A DNA stretch of 14,869 nucleotides from an uncultured Phycisphaerales bacterium (GTDB taxonomy: Bacteria; Planctomycetota; Phycisphaerae; WQYP01), in assembly GCA_903868035.1 (NCBI GenBank), contig CAIPTQ010000154.1, forward strand, positions 1 through 14,869, in the 5' to 3' direction. Shown here in pieces: positions 2,629 through 12,732 of the stretch. The notes under the pieces were generated by a model that saw only the letters and a program-made list of their open reading frames with translations, was not told where the DNA came from and did no database searches. The first letter of the stretch is position 1, and every line of letters starts with the position of its first letter. The position numbers and the translations under genes are program-made.

Positions 2629-3708
2629 TCAGGTCAAACCCATCACGGCGAACGCGGCGGTAAAGCGGTGCCGCCAGGTGTGTTGGGCGAGCGCCCGGCG
2701 ATGACCGGCCAGGCGGATGTGTTCGCGTTCTTCCTCGTGCGCCAGGTAGTAGCGGATTTTTTCCGCCATGTCCGGGAGGGAGTGGTAGAAGACTATCTCC
2801 TTATCCGGGGTGAAGAACTCCGCCAGTTCGTCCATCGCCTCGACCATGTAGAAGCCGCCGCTCATGGGCACTTCGAAGTCGCGCAGGCGAACCTGCACGA
2901 CGCGCCGGCCGGACTGGTGGGTTTCGCCGCAGGTGGAGAAGCCGAGGTTGATTTTGCTGCGGGAGAAGGTTTGGATCATGGCCTCATCGTCGAGCGGGCC
3001 GCCGGTCACGGATGCCGGCAGGCGCCGGAGGGGGCTATCCTGGGGCGGGGGGTATTGGGGGTCGATGATCCAGCCGTGGCCCCAGACGCGGACGTTGATG
3101 TGGTGGTGGAGGAGGTTTTCGATGTATGCCGGGCGATCGCCGTAGGCCTGGCCGACGAAGGAGACGTCGAGGTCGCGGGGGAGGTCGTAGGGGTGGTAGA
3201 GGGCGGGGTTGGCGGCTTCCTGACAATAGAGGGGGCGGGCGCCGATGGCGCGATAGTCCGGGAGGCGGAATTTCTCCGGCACGAGGCACCAGTCGTAATG
3301 GGGGGAAATTTCGCGCACGAGATGGAACTGGTGGGCGGCGTTGCAGTACCAGTTGACCGTGGTGATGCCCAGGGCGCGGATGGCGTCCAGGGTTTCGGGC
3401 AGGACGCAGGCGTCGAAAAAGTAGGAGAAGAAGAGGTCGAGGGGCTGGCGGGCGTGGGCGGTTTGGATTTGGGCCAGCAGGGCGGCGGAGGCGCGGGGGC
3501 GGCTGGCGCGGATGAAGTCCGCCTGCCGGGGGTTGGCGGGGTCGAGATTGCGAAAGACGGGGGTGAGGTCGTAGTCGAAGGGGACGAGGTCGTGGCCCAT
3601 GGCGACGAGGGTCTGGTAGAGATTGGCGTACCAGAGGATGGAGTGGACGCCCTGGAACCAGGGGTTGGGGGTGGAATCGGAGGCGTAGAAAATACGCAGC
3701 GGGCGCAA
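2629..3708 (-). CDS. CgeB-type glycosyltransferase (GT-B fold), 359 aa
   Basis: Predicted to transfer a sugar from a nucleotide donor onto a surface glycan or protein; donor and acceptor are unknown. The N-terminus is a typical Rossmann start, LRIFYASD, with a long N-terminal domain. DVSFVGQAYGDR (181-192) opens the second domain. The C-terminal third has the hallmarks of the Glyco_trans_1_2/CgeB family: RSKINLGFS (250-258), VRLRDFEVPMSGGFYMVE (273-290), KEIVFY (303-308) and HTWRHR (343-348). I chose the TTG at 3708 because a GAGGA ribosome-binding site sits seven bases upstream and the Rossmann strand starts at once. A GTG at 3756 would add 16 residues of low-complexity sequence. It is divergent from the GDPD-like gene and convergent with the helicase. 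The coding strand is strongly C-rich, which creates long false open frames opposite. Confidence 0.88.
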   Translation of the reverse strand: MRPLRIFYASDSTPNPWFQGVHSILWYANLYQTLVAMGHDLVPFDYDLTPVFRNLDPANPRQADFIRASRPRASAALLAQIQTAHARQPLDLFFSYFFDACVLPETLDAIRALGITTVNWYCNAAHQFHLVREISPHYDWCLVPEKFRLPDYRAIGARPLYCQEAANPALYHPYDLPRDLDVSFVGQAYGDRPAYIENLLHHHINVRVWGHGWIIDPQYPPPQDSPLRRLPASVTGGPLDDEAMIQTFSRSKINLGFSTCGETHQSGRRVVQVRLRDFEVPMSGGFYMVEAMDELAEFFTPDKEIVFYHSLPDMAEKIRYYLAHEEEREHIRLAGHRRALAQHTWRHRFTAAFAVMGLT

Positions 3709-3740
3709 GGTGGAATCCTCACGAGAAGAACGGCTTGTGG

Positions 3741-3775
3741 CCGATAAAAACGGCACAGGTCCGCTTGTTTATCGG
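3741..3775. promoter_or_regulatory. Inverted repeat in divergent promoter region of the glycan genes
   Basis: CCGATAAA (3741-3748) and TTTATCGG (3768-3775) are perfect reverse complements separated by 19 bases. They lie between the CgeB-type gene, read leftward from 3708, and the GDPD-like gene, read rightward. An operator for a dimeric regulator controlling both directions would fit, but no regulator gene is visible in this window. I see no clear sigma-70 promoter. Confidence 0.35.
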
Positions 3776-3861: not shown

Positions 3862-4494
3862 GTGGAGATTCTGGCGCATCGCGGGTGGTGGGAGCGGGCG
3901 GCGGAGCGGAACACGCTGGCGGCGCTGGAGCGGGCGTTTGCGGCGGGGCTGGGTGTGGAGACGGATGTGCGCGACTGCGCGGGGGAGATTGTGATTTCGC
4001 ATGACCCCCCCGCCGGGGTGGGCGCGGGCATGGGGTTGCGCGGGATGCTGGCGAGCTATGTGAACGCGGGGCGGCCGGGAAGTTTGGCGCTGAATGTGAA
4101 GGCGGATGGTTTGCAGGGGATGGTGATGGGGCTGCTGCGGGAGTTTGATATTCGGCGCGGATTTATGTTTGACATGTCGATTCCGGATACGCTGCAGTGG
4201 CTGGAGGCCGGGGCGCGGGTGTTTGTGCGGCAGAGCGAGTATGAGCCGGTGCCGGCGCTGTATGAGCGGGTGGCGGGGGTGTGGCTGGATGGATTGGCGG
4301 GGGATTGGTTTACGCGGGAAGTGATCGGCGGACACCTGGCGGCGGGGAAACAGGTGGCGGTGGTGTCGCCGGAGCTGCACGGGCGCGAGCCGGCGGCGGT
4401 GTGGGGGATGCTGGCAAGTTTTGAGCAGGATGGAATTTTGCTCTGCACGGATCGGGTGGCGGAGGCACGGAGGTTTTTTCATGGGCAAAATTGA
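3862..4494 (+). CDS. GDPD/PI-PLC-like phosphodiesterase family protein, about 210 aa
   Basis: Related to glycerophosphodiester phosphodiesterases, a TIM-barrel fold, in the short form found in polysaccharide clusters. The protein begins MEILAHRGWW, with the HRG signature at 6-8. N17 follows in the ERNT context, then VETDVR with E33 and D35, and the catalytic-type pair H47-D48 in ISHDPP. Where canonical GDPDs have a Glu-x-Lys on the next strand, this has LNVK (77-80), so one metal ligand may be replaced. FDMSIPD (103-109) and VWLDGLAGDW further on fit the same subfamily. I chose the GTG at 3862 from the family's usual start and a GGGAG nine bases upstream. In-frame starts at 3790 (GTG) and 3820 (ATG) would add an unconserved Arg-rich leader. 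The 3' end overlaps the HAD gene by 14 bp, so the two are probably co-translated. The substrate is unknown; it may process a glycerol-phosphate or other phosphodiester precursor. Confidence 0.75.
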   Translation: MEILAHRGWWERAAERNTLAALERAFAAGLGVETDVRDCAGEIVISHDPPAGVGAGMGLRGMLASYVNAGRPGSLALNVKADGLQGMVMGLLREFDIRRGFMFDMSIPDTLQWLEAGARVFVRQSEYEPVPALYERVAGVWLDGLAGDWFTREVIGGHLAAGKQVAVVSPELHGREPAAVWGMLASFEQDGILLCTDRVAEARRFFHGQN

Positions 4495-5116
4495 GGCGGT
4501 TATTTTCGACATGGATGGCGTGCTGATCGACGCCAAGGACTGGCATTTTGAATCGCTGAACAAGGCCCTGGCGCTGTTCGGCTATTCGATCAGCCGGTTC
4601 GACCATCTGGTGACTTACGACGGGCTGCCGACGAAGAAGAAACTGGAGATGCTGTCGCGGGAGCGCGGCTTGCCGGCGAAACTGCATGAGTTCATCAACC
4701 GGCTGAAGCAGGACTATACCATGGAGATGATTTATACGCGGTGCAAGCCGATCTTTCAGCACGAGTATGCGCTGGCGCGGCTGCATGCGGAGGGGTATCG
4801 GCTGGCGGTGGCTTCGAATTCGATTCGCGCGACGGTGGAACTGATGATGGAGCGCGCGGCGCTTAAGCCGTACCTAGAGCTGCTGCTGTCGAACCAGGAT
4901 GTGACCCGGGCCAAGCCCGATCCGGAGATGTATACGATCACCATTCAGCGGCTGGGCTTGCAGCCGGGGCAGTGCCTGGTGGTGGAGGACAACCAGAACG
5001 GCATCAAGGCTGCGGAGGCGGCCGGGGCGCATGTGATGGTGGTGGGTGACGTGATGGACGTGACGTATCCGAGCATCTGCGAGAATATTGCCCGGGCGCA
5101 AAGGAGTGCGGCATGA
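4481..5116 (+). CDS. HAD-superfamily phosphatase / phosphomutase-like hydrolase (HAD-IA), 211 aa
   Basis: A soluble haloacid-dehalogenase-type hydrolase, expected to remove or move a phosphate on a small sugar or polyol phosphate. Motif I is FDMDGVLID (9-17), with nucleophile D10 and acid/base D12. The helical cap spans about 18-85. Motif II is ASNS (111-114), motif III is K145 in AKPDPEMY and motif IV is VVEDNQNGIKAA (167-178). The length is normal for the beta-phosphoglucomutase/phosphoglycolate phosphatase branch. The ATG at 4481 has a perfect GGAGG seven bases upstream; an earlier in-frame ATG at 4421 lies deep in the preceding gene and is rejected. The gene overlaps the GDPD-like gene by 14 bp and the following nucleotidyltransferase by 4 bp (ATGA). 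That suggests dephosphorylation of an intermediate in the same pathway. The specific substrate cannot be read from sequence. Confidence 0.9.
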   Translation: MGKIEAVIFDMDGVLIDAKDWHFESLNKALALFGYSISRFDHLVTYDGLPTKKKLEMLSRERGLPAKLHEFINRLKQDYTMEMIYTRCKPIFQHEYALARLHAEGYRLAVASNSIRATVELMMERAALKPYLELLLSNQDVTRAKPDPEMYTITIQRLGLQPGQCLVVEDNQNGIKAAEAAGAHVMVVGDVMDVTYPSICENIARAQRSAA

Positions 5117-5862
5117 AAGTGCTTGTTCCCATGAGCGGGTCCGATGCGGCGTTTCGCGAGGCGGGTTATCCACGATGTAAGAGCCTTATCGAGATCAACG
5201 GCAAGGCGATTATTCAGCATATCTACGAGAACTTGCTAAGCCTAAAGCCGGAGCAGTTCATTTTTGTGATCCGCAAGGAAGATCATGCGCAGCATCATCT
5301 GTCGGATGTGCTGGGGCTGCTGGCGCCCGGGTGCCGGGTGATTGTGGCGGAGGGGAACACGGCCGGGGCGGCATGTACGGCGCTATTGGCGGTGGAGGCC
5401 ATTGGGGCGGATGAGGAGTTGGTGATCGCCAATGCGGATCAGATCATCCGGGCCGACCTGTTTGCCATTATCCAGGGATTCCGCCAGCGCGGCTTGGATG
5501 GCGGGACCATAGCGTTTGATTCCATCCATCCGCGGTGGTCGTATGTGCGGGTGAACGAGGCGGGGCTGGTGACGGAGGCCGCGGAAAAACGGCCCATTTC
5601 GCGGCACGCGACTGCGGGGTTCTATTATTTTCGGAAGGGCGGGGATTTTGCGACGGCGGCGATGGGCATGATCCGCAAGGCGGCGCATGTCAACAATGTC
5701 TATTATGTGTGTCCGACATTTAATGAGATGATTCTGCGGCAGGCGAAGATTGGGGTGCATGAGATTCGTCCCGAGCAGTATTTCTCGCTGGCGACGCCGC
5801 AGGATGTACAGCGCTATGAGGAGCGGCTCAGCCGCCAGTGCGCGGAGGTGGTGCATGCGTAA
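5113..5862 (+). CDS. Sugar/polyol-phosphate nucleotidyltransferase family protein, 249 aa, degenerate signature
   Basis: A member of the NTP_transferase (GT-A-like) family that makes NDP-activated precursors. The N-terminal nucleotide-binding loop reads PMSGSDAAFREAGY (6-19), whereas its paralogue at 6178 reads PMAGRGKRFIDAGF. The glycine-rich G-x-G-x-R signature is therefore missing its conserved Arg and second Gly. K23 is kept, though PKPL has become RCKSL. Conserved later blocks are GAACTALLA (85-93), IANADQ (105-110), WSYVRV (142-147), AEKRPIS (157-163) and the VNNVYYVCPTFNEMI region (193-207). It starts on the ATGA overlap with the HAD gene, with AGGAG six bases upstream, and overlaps the cupin gene by 8 bp. 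It could be an active enzyme with altered nucleotide specificity, or a regulatory or inactive partner of the second nucleotidyltransferase. Confidence 0.88.
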   Translation: MKVLVPMSGSDAAFREAGYPRCKSLIEINGKAIIQHIYENLLSLKPEQFIFVIRKEDHAQHHLSDVLGLLAPGCRVIVAEGNTAGAACTALLAVEAIGADEELVIANADQIIRADLFAIIQGFRQRGLDGGTIAFDSIHPRWSYVRVNEAGLVTEAAEKRPISRHATAGFYYFRKGGDFATAAMGMIRKAAHVNNVYYVCPTFNEMILRQAKIGVHEIRPEQYFSLATPQDVQRYEERLSRQCAEVVHA

Positions 5863-6193
5863 GGCGCGGCTGGAAGATATGAAGGCCGGATGGTTCGTCG
5901 GGGCCTTTTCGCCGACGGCACTAAAAACGGATGCTGCGGAAGTAGCGGTGAAGCATTATGCCGCGGGGCAGGGTGAGAAGCGACACTATCACAAGGTGGC
6001 CACGGAGGTGACGGTGATCGTTGCCGGCGAAGTGGAGATGAACGGCGTGCGCTATGGAGCGGGGCAGATTATCGTGATTGAGCCGGGCGAGGTCACCGAT
6101 TTTAAGGCCGTGACGGCGGCGACGACGGCGGTTGTGAAGATACCCGGTGCGCTGAATGACAAATATATGGAGACCGCATGCTCAACATCGTGA
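5855..6193 (+). CDS. Small cupin-domain protein, 112 aa
   Basis: A single-domain cupin (beta-barrel). The metal-binding region includes RHYHKVATEV with H44, H46 and E51, followed by VIVAGEVEMNG (54-64) and IIVIEPGEVTDF (72-83). The usual fourth metal ligand His is not obvious and D82 occupies that area. The end, VVKIPGALNDKY (93-104), is a block I associate with cupins encoded next to nucleotidyltransferases in LPS and capsule clusters. The start ATG at 5855 is preceded by GGAGG six bases away; a longer open frame from 5750 is an out-of-frame shadow of the preceding gene. It overlaps the upstream gene by 8 bp and the downstream gene by 16 bp. Its role is probably isomerase, epimerase or sensor of a pathway intermediate; no activity is assigned. 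Confidence 0.85.
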   Translation: MRKARLEDMKAGWFVGAFSPTALKTDAAEVAVKHYAAGQGEKRHYHKVATEVTVIVAGEVEMNGVRYGAGQIIVIEPGEVTDFKAVTAATTAVVKIPGALNDKYMETACSTS

Positions 6194-7932
6194 TGCCGAT
6201 GGCGGGTCGCGGCAAGCGCTTTATCGACGCGGGTTTTACGACACCCAAGCCGCTGATACCGGTGTATGGCCAGCCGATGACGAAGTTGGTGATCGACAAC
6301 CTGCGCCCAGCGCGGCCGCATCGATTTATTTTTCTGATTTTGCAGGAGCATATCGACGCGTTTGGGTTCGACCAGCATTTGCGAACGTGGGAGCCCGGGT
6401 GCGTCATCGTGCCGGTGAGGGAAGTGACGCAGGGGGCCGCATGCACCGTGCTGTTGGCGCGGGAGCATATAGATAGCGAGATGCCGCTGATGATCGCAAA
6501 TTGCGATCAATGGGTGGATGTGGATATTGACGAGTACCTGTCGCGGATGGACCAGCAGGGAGCGGAGGGGCTGATCATGACGATGTCGTCGGATGATCCG
6601 AAGTGGTCGTATTGCCGATTTGACGATGCGGGGCGTATGGTGGAAGTAGTGGAGAAGCAGGTGGTGTCGAACGAGGCGACGGTGGGTATTTACAACTATC
6701 GGCGGGGGAAGGATTTTGTCGCGGCGGCGGAGGCGATGATCGCATCGAACCTGCGGGTAAACAATGAGTATTATGTGGCGCCGGCGTATAACCAACTTAT
6801 CGCGCAAGGACAGAAGATCGCTTATTTCAACGTGGGCCGCGAGTATGATGGCATGTATGGGCTGGGCATTCCCCAGGATCTGGAGATATTCAACAAACTG
6901 GCGGATCGCCTGGTGACGCGCCTCATGCGGATGGCCAAGATTGAGGGGCGAGCGGCGATTTTGAATCGTTTGGCGACGGCCGTGGGGCAGAGCCGCAACA
7001 CGAAGGTGACATTCCACGAGCGGCCGATTTACGCGGACCAGATCGGCACTTTGTCCGATCCAATGCGCGAACCCATGCGTGCGGGGATTGTGCTGCAGGG
7101 GCCGATCCGGCGGGAGGAGGATTTCACGCTGAATACGGTGCGGTTGTATCGGCGGCACTTTCCGCAGGCGGCGATTGTGGTTTCGACGTGGGACAGCGAA
7201 GATGGGGCGGCACTGGAGCAGATGCGCGGCGCCGGGGCGACCATTTTGACGAGCGCGCTGCCGGCCGTGCGCGGGCCGGGTAATGTGAATTGCCAGATTG
7301 TCTCGACTTTTGCGGGGGTCAACTGGTGCCGGGGGCAGGGGGTGTTTCACATTTTGAAGACACGCACGGATCAGAGGCTGTACGCACCGAATGCATTGGA
7401 TTTCATGCGGGCGACGCTGGAGGCATTCCCGCTGAGGCCGGGGTTGACGCAGCGGGCGCGCATACTGGGCATCAGCCATGATAGTTTCAAGTTCCGGCTA
7501 TATGGATTGGGCGATCATCTGCTGTTCGGCACGACCGACGATATGCAGGCGTTCTGGTCCGTCGCCCAGGATATGCGACCGTTCAATGATCCGGTGAATC
7601 CGACGTGGAATGAGGCTTCGCTGCGGAACGTAGTGGAAACGTATCTGGTGAGCGAATACCTCAAGAAGATCGGCAGGCCGGTGTTGTGGACTTTGGCCGA
7701 CAGCCTGGCGGCGTATGCGGAGAATTTCTGCATCATCGACCAGGAGGATATCGATTGGTACTGGCCGAAATATGATGCCCACAAGGAGCATCGCATGCTG
7801 GCGTATGATGCGGTCAAAAACACACAGGAGTTGACATTTCGCGACTGGCTGCTGTTGCAGCGCGGGTGCGTGGATGTGAGCATGATGCCCGAGGCGGGTT
7901 TGCACGTGCCGTATGGCGGGCGGATGTATTGA
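6178..7932 (+). CDS. Bifunctional nucleotidyltransferase - WavE-type LPS synthesis protein, 584 aa
   Basis: Two domains in one open frame. Residues 1 to about 245 form a complete sugar-phosphate nucleotidyltransferase: MPMAGRGKRFIDAGF (6-20) with PKPL (23-26), GAACTVLLA (86-94), IANCDQ (106-111), WSYCRF (143-148), VVEKQVVS (157-164), VNNEYYVAPAYNQLI (194-208) and GLGIPQDL (228-235). After a linker of about 50 residues, residues 299-570 match the WavE family seen in Vibrio LPS core synthesis. That part has AGIVLQGPIRREEDFTLNTV (302-321), STWDSEDG (336-343), LKTRTDQRLY (393-402) and GDHLLFGTT (445-453). Known WavE proteins are thought to act in glycan transfer, so activation and transfer may be combined here. 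GGAG lies five bases before the ATG, and the gene overlaps the cupin by 16 bp. The N-terminal domain is paralogous to the preceding nucleotidyltransferase but keeps the intact signature. Confidence 0.9.
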   Translation: MLNIVMPMAGRGKRFIDAGFTTPKPLIPVYGQPMTKLVIDNLRPARPHRFIFLILQEHIDAFGFDQHLRTWEPGCVIVPVREVTQGAACTVLLAREHIDSEMPLMIANCDQWVDVDIDEYLSRMDQQGAEGLIMTMSSDDPKWSYCRFDDAGRMVEVVEKQVVSNEATVGIYNYRRGKDFVAAAEAMIASNLRVNNEYYVAPAYNQLIAQGQKIAYFNVGREYDGMYGLGIPQDLEIFNKLADRLVTRLMRMAKIEGRAAILNRLATAVGQSRNTKVTFHERPIYADQIGTLSDPMREPMRAGIVLQGPIRREEDFTLNTVRLYRRHFPQAAIVVSTWDSEDGAALEQMRGAGATILTSALPAVRGPGNVNCQIVSTFAGVNWCRGQGVFHILKTRTDQRLYAPNALDFMRATLEAFPLRPGLTQRARILGISHDSFKFRLYGLGDHLLFGTTDDMQAFWSVAQDMRPFNDPVNPTWNEASLRNVVETYLVSEYLKKIGRPVLWTLADSLAAYAENFCIIDQEDIDWYWPKYDAHKEHRMLAYDAVKNTQELTFRDWLLLQRGCVDVSMMPEAGLHVPYGGRMY

Positions 7933-7947
7933 TTATTTATACCACTT

Positions 7948-8898
7948 GTGAACATCGGGTTATCCATGGCACTTAGCCTGAACTTTTTTCATATGGGAAT
8001 GAGCAACGAGGATGTTGCGCTGCGCTTTATGGGGATATACGAGGCGCAATTCCGGGGACTGGAGCGGGCCGGGGCGAGGGTGCGATTTTCGATGGATCGG
8101 CCGGATTCCACGGCGGATTGCGTGGTGGCCACCGCCAGCGAGGCGGATATTCGTCGCGCCGCGCGGGAAACGGACCGGCCGCTCATTTTGTATGTGCCGC
8201 AGGTGGATCAGTGGTGGGCGCGGGAGCTGTTAGCCGAGTTGCGAAACCGTATAGTGTTTGTTTACGGGCCGGCTATGTCGGAGGTGACAGCGGCGGCTTA
8301 TCTTGAGGTTGGACTAACGTATCATTACCTGCCGTTTGGCGCCGATCCGGATTTGATGCGCCCGCTGCATGTGCCGGCGCAGTATGATGTGGTGTTTTTA
8401 GGCGGTCTGCGGCATCGGAGCGGCTATCAACCCTATGTGGAACCGCTGCTGCAGAAGATTGACGCCAAGCGGATGCTGATCATAGGCGGCGGATGGGAGA
8501 AGTATGGCCTTGCGGCGAAATCGGTGGCGTATGGGCCTTTGGTCAACACCCTGTACAATTCAGGTCGTGTGTGCATCAATTTTCACGCGCCGGAGCAGTG
8601 CCGGGGGGTGGAGACGCAACTCGATTTGAACAACCGCGTGTTTGACCTGGCGATGGCGGGGTGCGTGCAGGTGTGCGACAATCCGGAGGCGGTGCTGCGG
8701 CATTTTGGGGCGGGGGAGGTGTTTGCCGAGGCGACGCCGGAGGCGTGGGTCGCGCGGGTGCTGGAATGCCTGGCGATGCCGGAGGAACAGCTAGAGGTGT
8801 ATCGCAAAGCGGCGCGAGCACGGGCGTTGACGGAGCATACTTGGGAAGAACGCGGACGGACAATGCTTTCATGGATCACGCGACATTTGAAGGTATGA
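7948..8898 (+). CDS. CgeB-like glycosyltransferase, 316 aa
   Basis: A second GT-B glycosyltransferase of the Glyco_trans_1_2/CgeB type, soluble and without membrane segments. The N-terminal half is divergent. YHYLPFGADPDLMRPL (125-140) and YDVVFLGGLRHRS (146-158) mark the domain junction. The C-terminal domain shows INFHAPEQCRGVETQLDLNN (210-229), then RVFDLAMAGC (230-239) and HTWEER (297-302), the usual signature end of this family. It follows the fusion gene by only 15 bp and precedes the methyltransferase by 6 bp, so it belongs to the same operon. Neither possible start has a strong ribosome-binding site. I give the GTG at 7948, whose product starts with a plausible first beta strand (MNIGLSMAL); an ATG at 7966 would remove six residues. 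Donor and acceptor are unknown. It is shorter and more distant than the CgeB-type protein at 2629. Confidence 0.8.
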   Translation: MNIGLSMALSLNFFHMGMSNEDVALRFMGIYEAQFRGLERAGARVRFSMDRPDSTADCVVATASEADIRRAARETDRPLILYVPQVDQWWARELLAELRNRIVFVYGPAMSEVTAAAYLEVGLTYHYLPFGADPDLMRPLHVPAQYDVVFLGGLRHRSGYQPYVEPLLQKIDAKRMLIIGGGWEKYGLAAKSVAYGPLVNTLYNSGRVCINFHAPEQCRGVETQLDLNNRVFDLAMAGCVQVCDNPEAVLRHFGAGEVFAEATPEAWVARVLECLAMPEEQLEVYRKAARARALTEHTWEERGRTMLSWITRHLKV

Positions 8899-8904
8899 TA
8901 GTGT

Positions 8905-10119
8905 ATGCAGACGCCGGCGCAAGAGCTATTTTCACCAGATTGCCAGCGAATATTCGCCGGGTGGGGCATTATGCCAAGCGAATTGGAGCTTGGCATCCAC
9001 CGCGCACTCAGCTCACGGACACTCAAGCCGGATGACAACCATCTACGGGCGGCGGCGGCATGGTTGCACCGGCTCATGGCACATCATCTTGCTCATTCGC
9101 GTTATGAGGGATGGACGCTGGCGGAAGTGCTGGGCGAGAAGACGGCATTGGTGCTGCGGATGGCTTATCAGCATGTGCCGGCGTTGGCGGCGGAGCTGGA
9201 GCTGCCGGATTCACCGCTGCATGCCATTGAAGCGGCGGCACGGTTTTTACCCCCCTATCCACCGGCACCTTCCCGGCATCTCGAGGCGCTGCGCCAGGCG
9301 GTTGCCGCCATCGACCTGCCGGTGGAGACGCCAGCAGGCGCCGACCCAACGTGGCATGCCAATCGGCGGCGTCTGCAGCAATTGGTATTGCAGGACAATC
9401 CGGCGCGATTCTTGTCGTGGCCGGTGGTGATGAACAGCATGTTCATGAATAATGCGGGAGTCGCCGGGCCGGAACTGGCGGCGCTCCAGGCGCGGGCGGA
9501 TTATGCGATGCGGTGGCTGCCGGCGCTGCGGGAGGATGCACTGGGCGCGCCGGCGCGAACGCCGCTGCATGTGGAATCCTCCAACAATTTGATCCATCAT
9601 GCGTACAACCTATTACAACTGGAACTGCATGCGGGCATTCCAGTGGAACGGCTGGCGTCCATTTTGGAATTTGGCGGCGGATATGGATCGTCGGCGCGGC
9701 TGGCGTTCCGGCTGGGATTTCGGGGGCAATATGTGATATTTGATTTGCCAGAGTTCTCGGCATTGCAGCGGTTCTATCTAGGATCGCTGGGTTTTCCAGT
9801 TGAGGAGAGCGGCATAACCAATGGATGCATCCGGTGCCTGACCGCGCTTGACGACTTGCGGAACACGCTGCCGGTGCCGGATTTGTTCCTGGCCACGTGG
9901 TCATTGAGCGAAACACCGGTCGCGTTTCGCGACCACATTCTACCCTTTGTGATGCACGCACGGCATGTACTTGTGGCGTATCAGGAGCGCTTTGGCGAGG
10001 CGGACAATGTCGCGCATTTTGCGGATGTGGCCCGGCAATTGGCGCCGTGCATGTGCAAGGATTATGCAATACCGCATTTGCCGGGGAATCGTTATCTGGT
10101 GGCGCATCCAATGTTATAA
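8905..10119 (+). CDS. Putative sugar O-methyltransferase, SAM-dependent, 404 aa
   Basis: A class I SAM-dependent methyltransferase resembling the NanM-type putative sugar O-methyltransferases of polysaccharide clusters. An N-terminal helical region (about 1-215) precedes the Rossmann domain. The SAM-binding motif I is ILEFGGGYGSSAR (253-265), the acidic end of strand 2 is VIFDLPEFS (277-285), and a post-motif block LFLATWSLSETP (327-338) follows. SSNNLIHHAYNL (225-236), just ahead of motif I, fits this family. The likely role is capping or decorating a sugar hydroxyl in the surface glycan built by the neighbouring genes. It starts six bases after the glycosyltransferase stop, with only a weak AGG upstream, and ends the plus-strand run. 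The next gene converges on it across a gap containing the second 100-bp element. Confidence 0.82.
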   Translation: MQTPAQELFSPDCQRIFAGWGIMPSELELGIHRALSSRTLKPDDNHLRAAAAWLHRLMAHHLAHSRYEGWTLAEVLGEKTALVLRMAYQHVPALAAELELPDSPLHAIEAAARFLPPYPPAPSRHLEALRQAVAAIDLPVETPAGADPTWHANRRRLQQLVLQDNPARFLSWPVVMNSMFMNNAGVAGPELAALQARADYAMRWLPALREDALGAPARTPLHVESSNNLIHHAYNLLQLELHAGIPVERLASILEFGGGYGSSARLAFRLGFRGQYVIFDLPEFSALQRFYLGSLGFPVEESGITNGCIRCLTALDDLRNTLPVPDLFLATWSLSETPVAFRDHILPFVMHARHVLVAYQERFGEADNVAHFADVARQLAPCMCKDYAIPHLPGNRYLVAHPML

Positions 10120-10299: not shown

Positions 10300-12672
10300 T
10301 CAGCCAATGTTGGTGGCGATATGGTGGATGAAATCCCGCCAGCGGGCGTCGTAGCTCAGGTCGCGCAGCAGCACCTGGCGAATGCCCGCGGCGGCCCGGT
10401 CACGGGCGCTGTCGGAACCGATATATTCATCGGCCAGCCGCGCAAATGCCGCGGCATCGTTGAACATGATCTGCTCCAGGCCGGGGATGAGCACCGGCGC
10501 GGGCACCAGGGTGCGCCAGATGCGGAAACCGGGGAAGACGCGGGTGCGGTCAAAAGCCGCGTATTCCGGGGCGATTTCCCGCCATAATTCATGCAGTTCC
10601 GGGCCGGCGCGCGCCAAGTCGGCGAGGGTGACGATGCCTTCCGCGGCGGCCAGTTGGCCCATGCGATAATGATGTTGAATGCGGACCTCATCCTGCGTGC
10701 GGTGCGCCTGGCGGATGAGGAAGAAACCGCCGGCCGCCCAGCCATCGAGCAGGCGCGAGTGCAGCACACCGGTCTCGATGATCTGCAGGTTGATGCGGCT
10801 GGCGCGATACACGGCCTGGGCCTGCTCGCCGGGCAGCGCGGCACCGGCGGCCCAGGGGCCCAGGGTCGGGTGGGCGGCCCAGCCGTTGCCCCAGAGCTTG
10901 AGCTTTTTGCCGCGGGAGGCGCACCAACGTGCCACCCAGCCGAGCGTTTCGTGGCGAAACACGCGATCCACCAGCAGCCGCAGATCGGCCAGCAGCGCGT
11001 TGACCACCGGCGGCGGCGCGTTTTTGCCGATGCCCGTGCGGCGGATCAAGTCCTGGAGTTCGAGGAATTCCCAGGCGCGGCCGCCGCGCGTGGCGGAGAT
11101 CACTTCCTGGCAGGTGGCGTCAAAGAGGGGGAGAAAGTCGGTAGCGCCCCGCCACTTGATGCGCAGGTTGTCGCGCAGTTGTTCGGGCGTGCCGGAGGCG
11201 TGTGAGACGTAGCTGACATCGCCGCCGAAGCGGGCGATTTCTTCCGGCGTCGCCGGTCCCGGCTGATAGCGGTGGGTCATGCCCGCCGGGTGGCAGAAGA
11301 TGCATGCCGAGATCGGCCAGTTCAAGTGAAATGAGCCGAAGATCGCCCCGTGCCCCGCCACGAAGGTCAGGCCCTTCATGTCCGCCAAGGCCCCGGGATC
11401 GCGCATGCACTGGAGGTTGTCCTGGTCCCAGCACAGGGCCGGGATGTTGCGCGGCAGGTCAGGAATCTCGTAGCGCATGCGCGAGATCGACACGAGTAAA
11501 TCCGGCTTGAGGCGGTCGATCATCCCCACGTAATCCTTTTCGAGGGATTGGTCGTCAGGCTCCATACAGATGTCCATCTGTATGTTCATTCCCCCGGCCT
11601 GGGCCACCGCCTGTAGTTCCTCCATCGAGTACCGGAGCACCGTCGAATAGCGCGTGGTGATGCCCAGCACGCGCAGCGGCGAGCCGACGCCCGCGGCGGC
11701 ATCCGCGAAGCGCTGGCGCCATGCGGCCGCGTCGATGCCGGCATAATGGGCCGTGATGCGTTCCCGTGTCCGGCAGCGCTCCTCCGCACGCGCGGCACAG
11801 AGCGCCTCAACTCCGGCCTGCAAGTTCAATGCCGCGCGCGGGCGCAGGGGATCGACCACGAACGTCGTGGGTGGCGTCCACCCCGGTGTGTCCCGCAGCG
11901 CCGCGAAAAACCGCCCCCCCGCGTCCGCACCAATGAACATCCGCAGCCGCGGGCCGGCCAGCCAATTCTGCCAGTTATGCAGATGCAGCACCATGCACAC
12001 CGCCGCCAGGTTCGGCTCCACGATATACAGCGGCGGGGAGTAGTTCAGATATGAATGATCGCTGACCGCCAGAATGTGGGGGATCAGCCACCCGTACCCC
12101 AATCCATCGAAGGCCAGCGGCCCGCGCAACTGCCCCTGGAAGCCCTCAGCGGAGATGCCGGCCGCGGCCCCCTTGAAATTCTGCAAGCCGCCGAGCCAAG
12201 CCTTGCAGGGGCTGGCGTGCGTGGTGTCAAAAATGTGGAAGTTGCCGTCGCCGGCCTGATGCAATTCGTAGCGCGCGGCATGGTTCTGCTCGGGGCTTTC
12301 CCAGGCCGCCAGCAGCGGCGCGGTGGCGATGCCGCGCTGTTCGAGCGCCCGCAGATTCGCCTGAAACCGCCGGCGCCGGCTGGACCAGGGGACCAAACCC
12401 GCCGGCAGGCGTTCGAGAGTCTGCCGCAGACCGTCCTGGGCATCTGTTTTTTCCGGCGTGCCGAGCAGCGCCATCATGCGCCGCGCCGCCGCGCCCATCT
12501 CCAGCGCCGCCAGCGCCCGCACATAATTCAATCCGGCAAGCGCATCGCCCTGGTCCAATTCCCACAGGCCCGCAGCCGCCTCCGCCACGGCATAAGGATC
12601 CTGCCGCACGTTCGCCACCTCCAGCAATTTTCGCAACGTTTCGCGTGCAACCATAGGCGTGTCCAAAATCAT
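10300..12672 (-). CDS. Large two-part glycosyltransferase-like protein (MAF/DUF115-like N-part, CgeB-like C-part), 790 aa
   Basis: Probably a glycosyltransferase with an added module. Residues 1 to about 110 are helical and Ala/Leu-rich, perhaps TPR-like. Residues about 135-275 resemble the Rossmann part of motility accessory factor/DUF115 proteins: GLGYGWLIPHILA (190-202), PPLYIVEPNLAAV (213-225) and RLRMFIGADAGG (242-253). Residues 333 to about 785 look like a GT-B enzyme with LRVLGITTRYST (333-344), CWDQDNLQCM (414-423), VSYVSHASGTPEQLRDNL (486-503), LKLWGNGWAAHP (591-602) and the CgeB-like block YRASRINLQIIETGVLHSRL (622-641) then LDGWAAGGFFL (642-652). I chose the ATG at 12672; a TTG at 12708 would add 12 residues, and an internal ATG at 12654 is also possible. 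None has a strong ribosome-binding site. It is the last gene of the minus-strand operon, 60 bp after the membrane protein gene. Domain assignment of the first third is by pattern only. Confidence 0.75.
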   Translation of the reverse strand: MILDTPMVARETLRKLLEVANVRQDPYAVAEAAAGLWELDQGDALAGLNYVRALAALEMGAAARRMMALLGTPEKTDAQDGLRQTLERLPAGLVPWSSRRRRFQANLRALEQRGIATAPLLAAWESPEQNHAARYELHQAGDGNFHIFDTTHASPCKAWLGGLQNFKGAAAGISAEGFQGQLRGPLAFDGLGYGWLIPHILAVSDHSYLNYSPPLYIVEPNLAAVCMVLHLHNWQNWLAGPRLRMFIGADAGGRFFAALRDTPGWTPPTTFVVDPLRPRAALNLQAGVEALCAARAEERCRTRERITAHYAGIDAAAWRQRFADAAAGVGSPLRVLGITTRYSTVLRYSMEELQAVAQAGGMNIQMDICMEPDDQSLEKDYVGMIDRLKPDLLVSISRMRYEIPDLPRNIPALCWDQDNLQCMRDPGALADMKGLTFVAGHGAIFGSFHLNWPISACIFCHPAGMTHRYQPGPATPEEIARFGGDVSYVSHASGTPEQLRDNLRIKWRGATDFLPLFDATCQEVISATRGGRAWEFLELQDLIRRTGIGKNAPPPVVNALLADLRLLVDRVFRHETLGWVARWCASRGKKLKLWGNGWAAHPTLGPWAAGAALPGEQAQAVYRASRINLQIIETGVLHSRLLDGWAAGGFFLIRQAHRTQDEVRIQHHYRMGQLAAAEGIVTLADLARAGPELHELWREIAPEYAAFDRTRVFPGFRIWRTLVPAPVLIPGLEQIMFNDAAAFARLADEYIGSDSARDRAAAGIRQVLLRDLSYDARWRDFIHHIATNIG

Positions 12673-12732
12673 GTGATGTGCCCATCCATTATCGGTGCGC
12701 GCCGGCAATCCCGTACACCCAGGGGAATGGAA

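Follow-up and report, generated by a model that had tools for sequence, protein, structure and literature searches.

Five Overlapping Genes in a Phycisphaerales Contig

The stretch of DNA analyzed in this study, here called the window, is the 14,869-nucleotide (nt) contig CAIPTQ010000154.1 of an uncultured Phycisphaerales bacterium (assembly GCA_903868035.1), which carries five successive open reading frames (ORFs) on the plus strand. The first is a GDPD-like gene (3862..4494, GTG start, 210 amino acids [aa]), followed by a gene for an HAD-IA hydrolase (4481..5116), a gene for a nucleotidyltransferase-fold protein, NT1 (5113..5862), a gene for a small single-domain cupin (5855..6193), and the NT2-WavE gene (6178..7932). 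The last of these joins NT2 (6178..6900), a canonical sugar-phosphate nucleotidyltransferase domain with the motif AGRGKRF...PKPLIP, to a WavE domain (PF07507; 7033..7932) in which QGP, STW, and K-x-RTD stretches are conserved. Successive genes overlap by 14, 4 (an ATGA), 8, and 16 bp, as read from the sequence. Shine–Dalgarno-like motifs are present within the GDPD gene ahead of the HAD gene (GGAGG, 4469-4473, plus strand, 7 nt from the ATG), within the HAD gene ahead of NT1 (AAAGGAG, 5100-5106, 6 nt spacing), within the NT1 gene ahead of the cupin (GGAGG, 5844-5848, 6 nt), and within the cupin gene ahead of NT2-WavE (GGAG, 6169-6172, 5 nt). The overlaps and the good ribosome-binding sites inside upstream genes from the HAD gene onward, both reported in the initial annotation of this contig, are therefore confirmed, with spacings of 5–7 nt. 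The start of the GDPD-like gene is uncertain and may be either GTG 3862 or ATG 3820. The family N-termini agree with the former within about three residues in most rows shown, but the spacing between it and its GGGGAGG is just 1 nt; the in-frame ATG 3820 gives the 224-aa form found in the protein database (P0001).

Co-occurrence, Distribution, and Probable Mobility of the Cassette

Genomes, one per species, were scanned with an alignment of the GDPD family, which returned 393 relatives, and the best 80 loci together with the window gave 81 sources. Counting up to 7 kb from the GDPD gene, 78 of these sources have HAD, 75 have NT1, 72 have NT2, 56 have the cupin, and 32 have WavE; the three sources lacking HAD in this range are L014, L019, and L070, the last of which stops 47 bases past the match. 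In the subset of loci measuring 18 kb or more (59 loci), the counts were HAD 58, NT1 57, NT2 58, cupin 43, and WavE 25. The exact same-strand order GDPD-HAD-NT1-cupin-NT2 is present in 43/81 sources, or 45/81 if interposed WavE matches are ignored. As GDPD had served as the anchor for these loci, whole-genome samples were also tested. Among 199 Pseudomonas genomes, NT1/NT2 were identified in eight and GDPD in nine, the eight being shared and the genes adjacent; the match in the ninth GDPD genome (G554) is partial and weak (E 5.7e-26), and this genome lacks NT1. Among 199 Rhizobiaceae genomes, NT1/NT2 and GDPD occur in the same five, again adjacent. The corresponding hypergeometric values (1.7e-13 and 4.0e-10) treat related genomes as independent, and each sample contains its seed genome. 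Chance co-occurrence, which would have spoken against a coupled module, fails clearly as an explanation of the linkage in the 81 sources and in both genome samples, and the five genes are inherited together as a genuine unit in the company of glycan-assembly genes, which supports the coupled module proposed earlier.

GDPD, HAD, and NT1 are all present in 75 sources, which cover 13 named phyla, and the median pairwise identities are 46.7% (GDPD), 59.0% (HAD), and 40.4% (NT1). In a tree of the three concatenated proteins from these sources, the phylum label changes 16 times, compared with a minimum of 12 and a shuffled mean of 37.6; the tree was built by a quick method, its deep branches are weak, and the composition of 23 rows is unusual. 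Sources of one phylum mostly group together, with some placed across phylum boundaries, and the row nearest to the window is a Chlorobiota metagenome-assembled genome (MAG) with 57% identity. The relatives also include a Phycisphaerae MAG (P0015, 56% identity; P0128, 78% identity). The cassette is sparse in Planctomycetota, because NT1/NT2 were found in 1/199 genomes sampled, which was the seed genome itself.

Among 72,556 plasmids scanned, GDPD was identified in 27 records (E to 1e-5) and NT1 in 26 (E to 1e-15), and all 20 listed of the 27 GDPD records are also NT1 matches. The conjugative IncP plasmid of Pseudomonas aeruginosa PA83 (L081:7238-15683) carries NT2-GDPD-HAD-NT1-cupin together with WavE and a GMC oxidoreductase, downstream of insertion sequence elements. 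A scan of viral contigs with GDPD returned four relatives (best 39% identity), and the scan with NT1 returned none. The Synechococcus phages DSL-LC03 and S-8S55 encode a fusion of HAD with a nucleotidyltransferase (L082:1797-3182 and L083:5341-6726) beside glycosyltransferase genes and a second HAD. We considered this protein as an HAD-NT1 fusion and rejected that assignment, as its nucleotidyltransferase domain is nearer to NT2 (311 vs. 278 bits in L082) and has the loop Arg. GDPD gave a single weak match in these phages (14.7 bits, L082) and none in L083, so that the set they carry is related to the cassette but incomplete. Rarity, plasmid copies, and the partial cyanophage set together argue for an accessory, mobile cassette.

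Protein Families, Conserved Residues, and Fusions

Both NT1 (E 2e-7, 31.1 bits) and NT2 (E 3e-12, 47.3 bits) match the Pfam NTP_transferase family (PF00483; cut-off 21.2). The GxGxR loop and the following Lys are motif residues of nucleotidyltransferases. In NT2, the loop with both Gly, Arg, and Lys (signature AGxGxRF...PKP) is kept in 71/72 sequences, the remaining row being a gap, and Asp110 is kept in 72/72. The NT1 loop is of the AGSDAAF type instead of AGxGxRF and has the Arg in just 1/75, with Lys23 retained in 68/75 and Asp109 in 69/75. On these counts, the proposal of two activating enzymes is not supported in that form. The two proteins present a clean case of paralogues in which one has lost the loop Arg, yet is co-inherited and even fused with the other. 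A model of the window NT2 and the NT1 half of a fusion model (L001) both match nucleotidyltransferases, with PDB 4evw as the best hit in each case, and the same entry is the top sequence match of both. PDB 4evw is a capsule-type nucleotidyltransferase from Vibrio cholerae RC9, presumably BcbE-like, which keeps the Arg (AGMSSRF); this differs from NT1, which has no Arg, and from NT2, in which GxGxR is complete. No tested reaction can be read from the name of the 4evw entry. As far as its main text goes, a study of Vibrio sp. KMM 8419 reports a BcbE-like protein (IPR016873) in the capsule cluster of that strain, and the terms glycerophosphodiester, cupin, phosphodiesterase, and nucleotidyl have 0 occurrences each in that text (PMC11641403).

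RefSeq names both the NT1 and the NT2 genes "glycosyltransferase family 2," a label that hides the cassette. Taken at face value, this label and the missing loop Arg of NT1 would make NT1 and NT2 glycosyltransferases, and the cassette would build a glycan from ordinary nucleoside diphosphate (NDP)-sugars with no new donor. We regard this as improbable, because NT2 has a nearly invariant signature, fits nucleotidyltransferases best in sequence and structure, and forms fusions of its own with GT2, WavE, or methyltransferase domains.

These fusions are varied. The best 120 of 471 homologues of NT2-WavE, taken from candidates of 0.55–1.75 times the query length with short proteins excluded, comprise 73 NT2-SnoaL, 16 NT1-NT2, eight NT2-WavE (including the window), and one WavE-NT2 protein, together with eight in which NT2 is joined to another long region and 14 with no recognized second domain. 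Of the eight with another long region, two have a GT2 domain and three have methyltransferase-type domains according to precomputed Pfam assignments. The SnoaL-like domain is fused to NT2 in many metagenome proteins, and elsewhere a 111-aa SnoaL-like protein is located between NT1 and the cupin (L046:11980-12315, L008:12010-12345) or forms an NT1 tail (L009:11249-12334, L063:11257-12351; recognized by eye and as profile seeds). One protein (P0237) joins NT1 to the cupin. The single NT1-NT2 protein occurs in 16 loci that form one Pseudomonadota clade in the tree, 15 of them aligned; a third, degenerate nucleotidyltransferase (NT3) follows it in 15 sources (e.g., L001:12421-13449), where no cupin was seen, and the block is inverted in two. 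An NT3-class match in a different arrangement was found in L023. The natural fusions NT1-NT2, NT2-WavE, NT2-SnoaL, NT2-GT2, and NT1-cupin support the assignment of these proteins to one pathway.

The WavE domain scores above the cut-off of PF07507 (E 3e-11, 43.7 bits; cut-off 27) and may be a glycosyltransferase. It had been counted as a core part of the module; its presence within 7 kb in just 32/81 sources and its replacement by other domains in fusions do not bear this out. The third structural match of NT2-WavE is a Bodo saltans virus protein named "Glycosyltransferase/phospholipase" (BFVD A0A2H4UUJ1), which could be a nucleotidyltransferase fusion. The cupin match is weak and stays below the Cupin_2 cut-off (PF07883; E 3e-5, 24.1 bits; cut-off 27.2), and HxHxxxxE (H47, H49, E54), of which the HxH...E residues constitute the metal motif, is found in 56/56 members.

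The GDPD-like protein matches Pfam GDPD (PF03009) with E 0.0078 and 16.8 bits, below the gathering cut-off of 23.6. In the 43 sequences aligned, H6, R7, E33, D35, and H47 are invariant, corresponding to the His-Arg, Glu-x-Asp, and His residues of GDPD catalysis and metal binding. The Glu of the GDPD E-x-K motif is a further metal ligand, and its position is occupied by Asn78 in 43/43 cassette proteins, compared with Glu in 5/6 and Asp in 1/6 canonical relatives (the six of 16 canonical loci that matched the cassette profile and were aligned). The cassette family is also shorter than canonical GDPDs after the His-Asp motif. On this alignment, the protein is a short divergent branch of GDPD with a putatively altered metal site, and its reaction is for that reason not to be taken for granted; the earlier designation as phosphodiesterase-like needs to be narrowed in this sense, as Asn replaces a presumed metal-ligand Glu. 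The HAD protein is a strong match to Pfam HAD_2 (E 9e-35), and its DMDGV, Lys, and Glu-Asp residues are near-invariant in 78 domains. NCBIfam models for bPGM (85 vs. a cut-off of 189.4), HxpB (85.2 vs. 191), and PGMB-YQAB (116.1 vs. 153.35) all remain below their cut-offs, and among the 25 of 41 matches listed, no model other than the two general HAD-IA ones (TIGR01509 and TIGR01549) reaches its cut-off. By these scores, it is distant from the β-phosphoglucomutase and hexitol phosphatase models.

The building block had been suggested to be a polyol or phospho-decoration, which is a guess. In its fullest form, the polyol-phosphate variant would start from a glycerophosphodiester, out of which GDPD frees a polyol phosphate (glycerol phosphate or a different one); the HAD would trim this product, NT2 would make a CDP- or UDP-polyol, and WavE would transfer it as a teichoic-acid-like decoration. 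Such a route would suit the gene content, the GDPD-type N-terminal motifs, and the distant similarity of the HAD to hexitol and mannitol phosphatases. It is nevertheless rather unlikely, given a GDPD branch without the Glu of 5/6 canonical relatives and with a sub-cut-off score, an HAD under the hexitol, mannitol, and bPGM cut-offs, and no glycerol-3-phosphate cytidylyltransferase model among the NCBIfam matches of NT1 and NT2.

Proposed Pathway and Its Glycan Context

We consider that the genes probably constitute a widespread, horizontally moving accessory cassette, with a core of GDPD-HAD-NT1-NT2 plus cupin, SnoaL-like, or extra nucleotidyltransferase modules. Its probable product is an unusual nucleotide-activated unit destined for a dedicated surface-glycan transferase. 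Gene order, co-occurrence, fusions, the kept and lost residues, and the folds of NT1 and NT2 are demonstrated, and every reaction of the following scheme is inferred. The GDPD-like enzyme and the HAD phosphatase would give a monophosphorylated precursor by phosphodiester release and phosphate removal, which NT2 could then convert with a nucleoside triphosphate to NDP-X. NT1, its catalytic loop lost, might serve as a partner or regulatory subunit of NT2 or perform a changed transfer reaction. Isomerization or shaping of NDP-X may fall to the cupin with its metal motif or, in other lineages, to SnoaL, and WavE, fused to NT2 in the window, would transfer X onto a glycan; GT2 or methyltransferase domains take the place of WavE in some other fusions. 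A more specific version is possible and quite doubtful. In it, the two nucleotidyltransferase-fold proteins would act as one split or tandem nucleotidyltransferase machine, with NT1, devoid of the loop, catalyzing a new reaction that transfers a phospho-unit generated by the altered GDPD and the HAD. The cassette, spread between phyla and in part cyanophage-borne, would then make an as yet unknown class of nucleotide-activated glycan precursor.

Several points weigh against the proposed donor pathway. The activated unit X has no biochemical identity, and the altered GDPD site and sub-cut-off Pfam score make phosphodiesterase activity no more than a candidate function. The genome loci are GDPD-anchored and only the best hits of that scan, and phylum clustering suggests that transfer between phyla is limited or old. 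The cupin was not detected within 7 kb in 25/81 sources, so that the isomerase step is not universal. The WavE fold was not identified, as a sequence search of solved structures gave E 0.21 and 0.45 at best and the NT2 domain filled the structure matches. The AlphaFold model of the NT1-NT2 fusion has confident domains (mean predicted local distance difference test score 91.5) and does not show an NT1-NT2 interface (predicted template modeling score 0.54). GDPD and HAD might also serve salvage or repair, clearing dead-end phosphodiesters or bisphosphates, with the NT proteins recycling a known sugar-1-phosphate. Phosphodiesterase and phosphatase logic and the patchy accessory distribution fit this idea, which is highly improbable as it leaves the NT2-transferase fusions and the close family linkage unexplained.

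The proposed donor cassette would belong to a known class, the nucleotide-activated glycan precursor pathways. Among the matches listed in searches of open-licence PubMed Central papers, in which "WavE" also matches a common word, no title or abstract opening describes the five-gene set. Within this literature, the earlier statement that no characterized pathway has exactly this set stands, and the heptose, CDP-glycerol, and CDP-6-glucitol routes all differ. The GDP-D-glycero-D-manno-heptose route of Campylobacter jejuni likewise uses a phosphatase and a nucleotidyltransferase to produce a capsule donor but depends on two further enzymes, a sedoheptulose-7-P isomerase and a C1 kinase, and the word cupin is absent from the main text of that paper (PMC10680097); no such isomerase or kinase domain is among the Pfam/NCBIfam matches of the five proteins. 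In the available text on the CDP-6-D-glucitol route, a nucleotidyltransferase likewise activates a non-anomeric phosphate for capsule, with enzymes of PF01128 and PF01370 (PMC10918830), whereas the window NT proteins match PF00483 and PF12804. Neither PF01128 nor PF01370 has a Pfam match in the five proteins (E up to 0.01), and there is no oxidoreductase among the five genes. The CDP-glycerol route uses a TagD-type glycerol-3-phosphate cytidylyltransferase, which the cassette does not match, as no such model is among the NCBIfam matches of NT1 (seven) and NT2 (nine) at E up to 0.01. GMPPA and GMPPB are a regulatory and catalytic guanylyltransferase pair, resembling NT1/NT2 as paired nucleotidyltransferase paralogues, and Foldseek matched the NT1-NT2 model to 7d72, among other entries; the human complex has extra domains, and the pairing of NT1 with NT2 is read from their fusion. 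The presence of GDPD, HAD, and NT1 together across so many sources and phyla, with no characterized member found in our searches, marks a missing surface-glycan donor pathway, and a defined donor would let the presence of the cassette predict glycan chemistry. We also considered a link to a known glycan through the cassette-bearing Azospirillum doebereinerae GSF71 (L001). The O-polysaccharide repeat of this strain, which according to the available text consists of three rhamnose residues and one glucosamine and carries two O-acetyl groups (PMC7372237), sheds no light on the cassette and could be the product of a different locus, and the link was rejected.

The region of the window surrounding the five genes looks like a surface-glycan locus. 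Pfam matches identify PF13524 glycosyltransferase-like genes, which we take to be CgeB-like, upstream on the minus strand (2629-3756) and directly downstream on the plus strand (7948..8898), the latter being context outside the core. Also outside the core is a putative sugar O-methyltransferase-like protein (8905..10119, plus strand; NanM-type, 26.5 bits against a curated cut-off of 44). Next, on the minus strand, comes the third PF13524 gene of the window (10300-12708), for an 802-aa protein with a long N-terminal region and a C-terminal PF13524 match. It is followed on the same strand by a gene for a membrane protein, whose flippase-like match is weak (18.7 bits; cut-off 43.2), and by a gene of the GT4 type. 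Beside the glycan locus, a helicase-like ORF is present at 867-2366, with RecD2/TraA models below their cut-offs, and its stretch is lower in G+C (0.51–0.53 up to 2.5 kb vs. 0.57–0.68 in counting windows from 2.0 kb).

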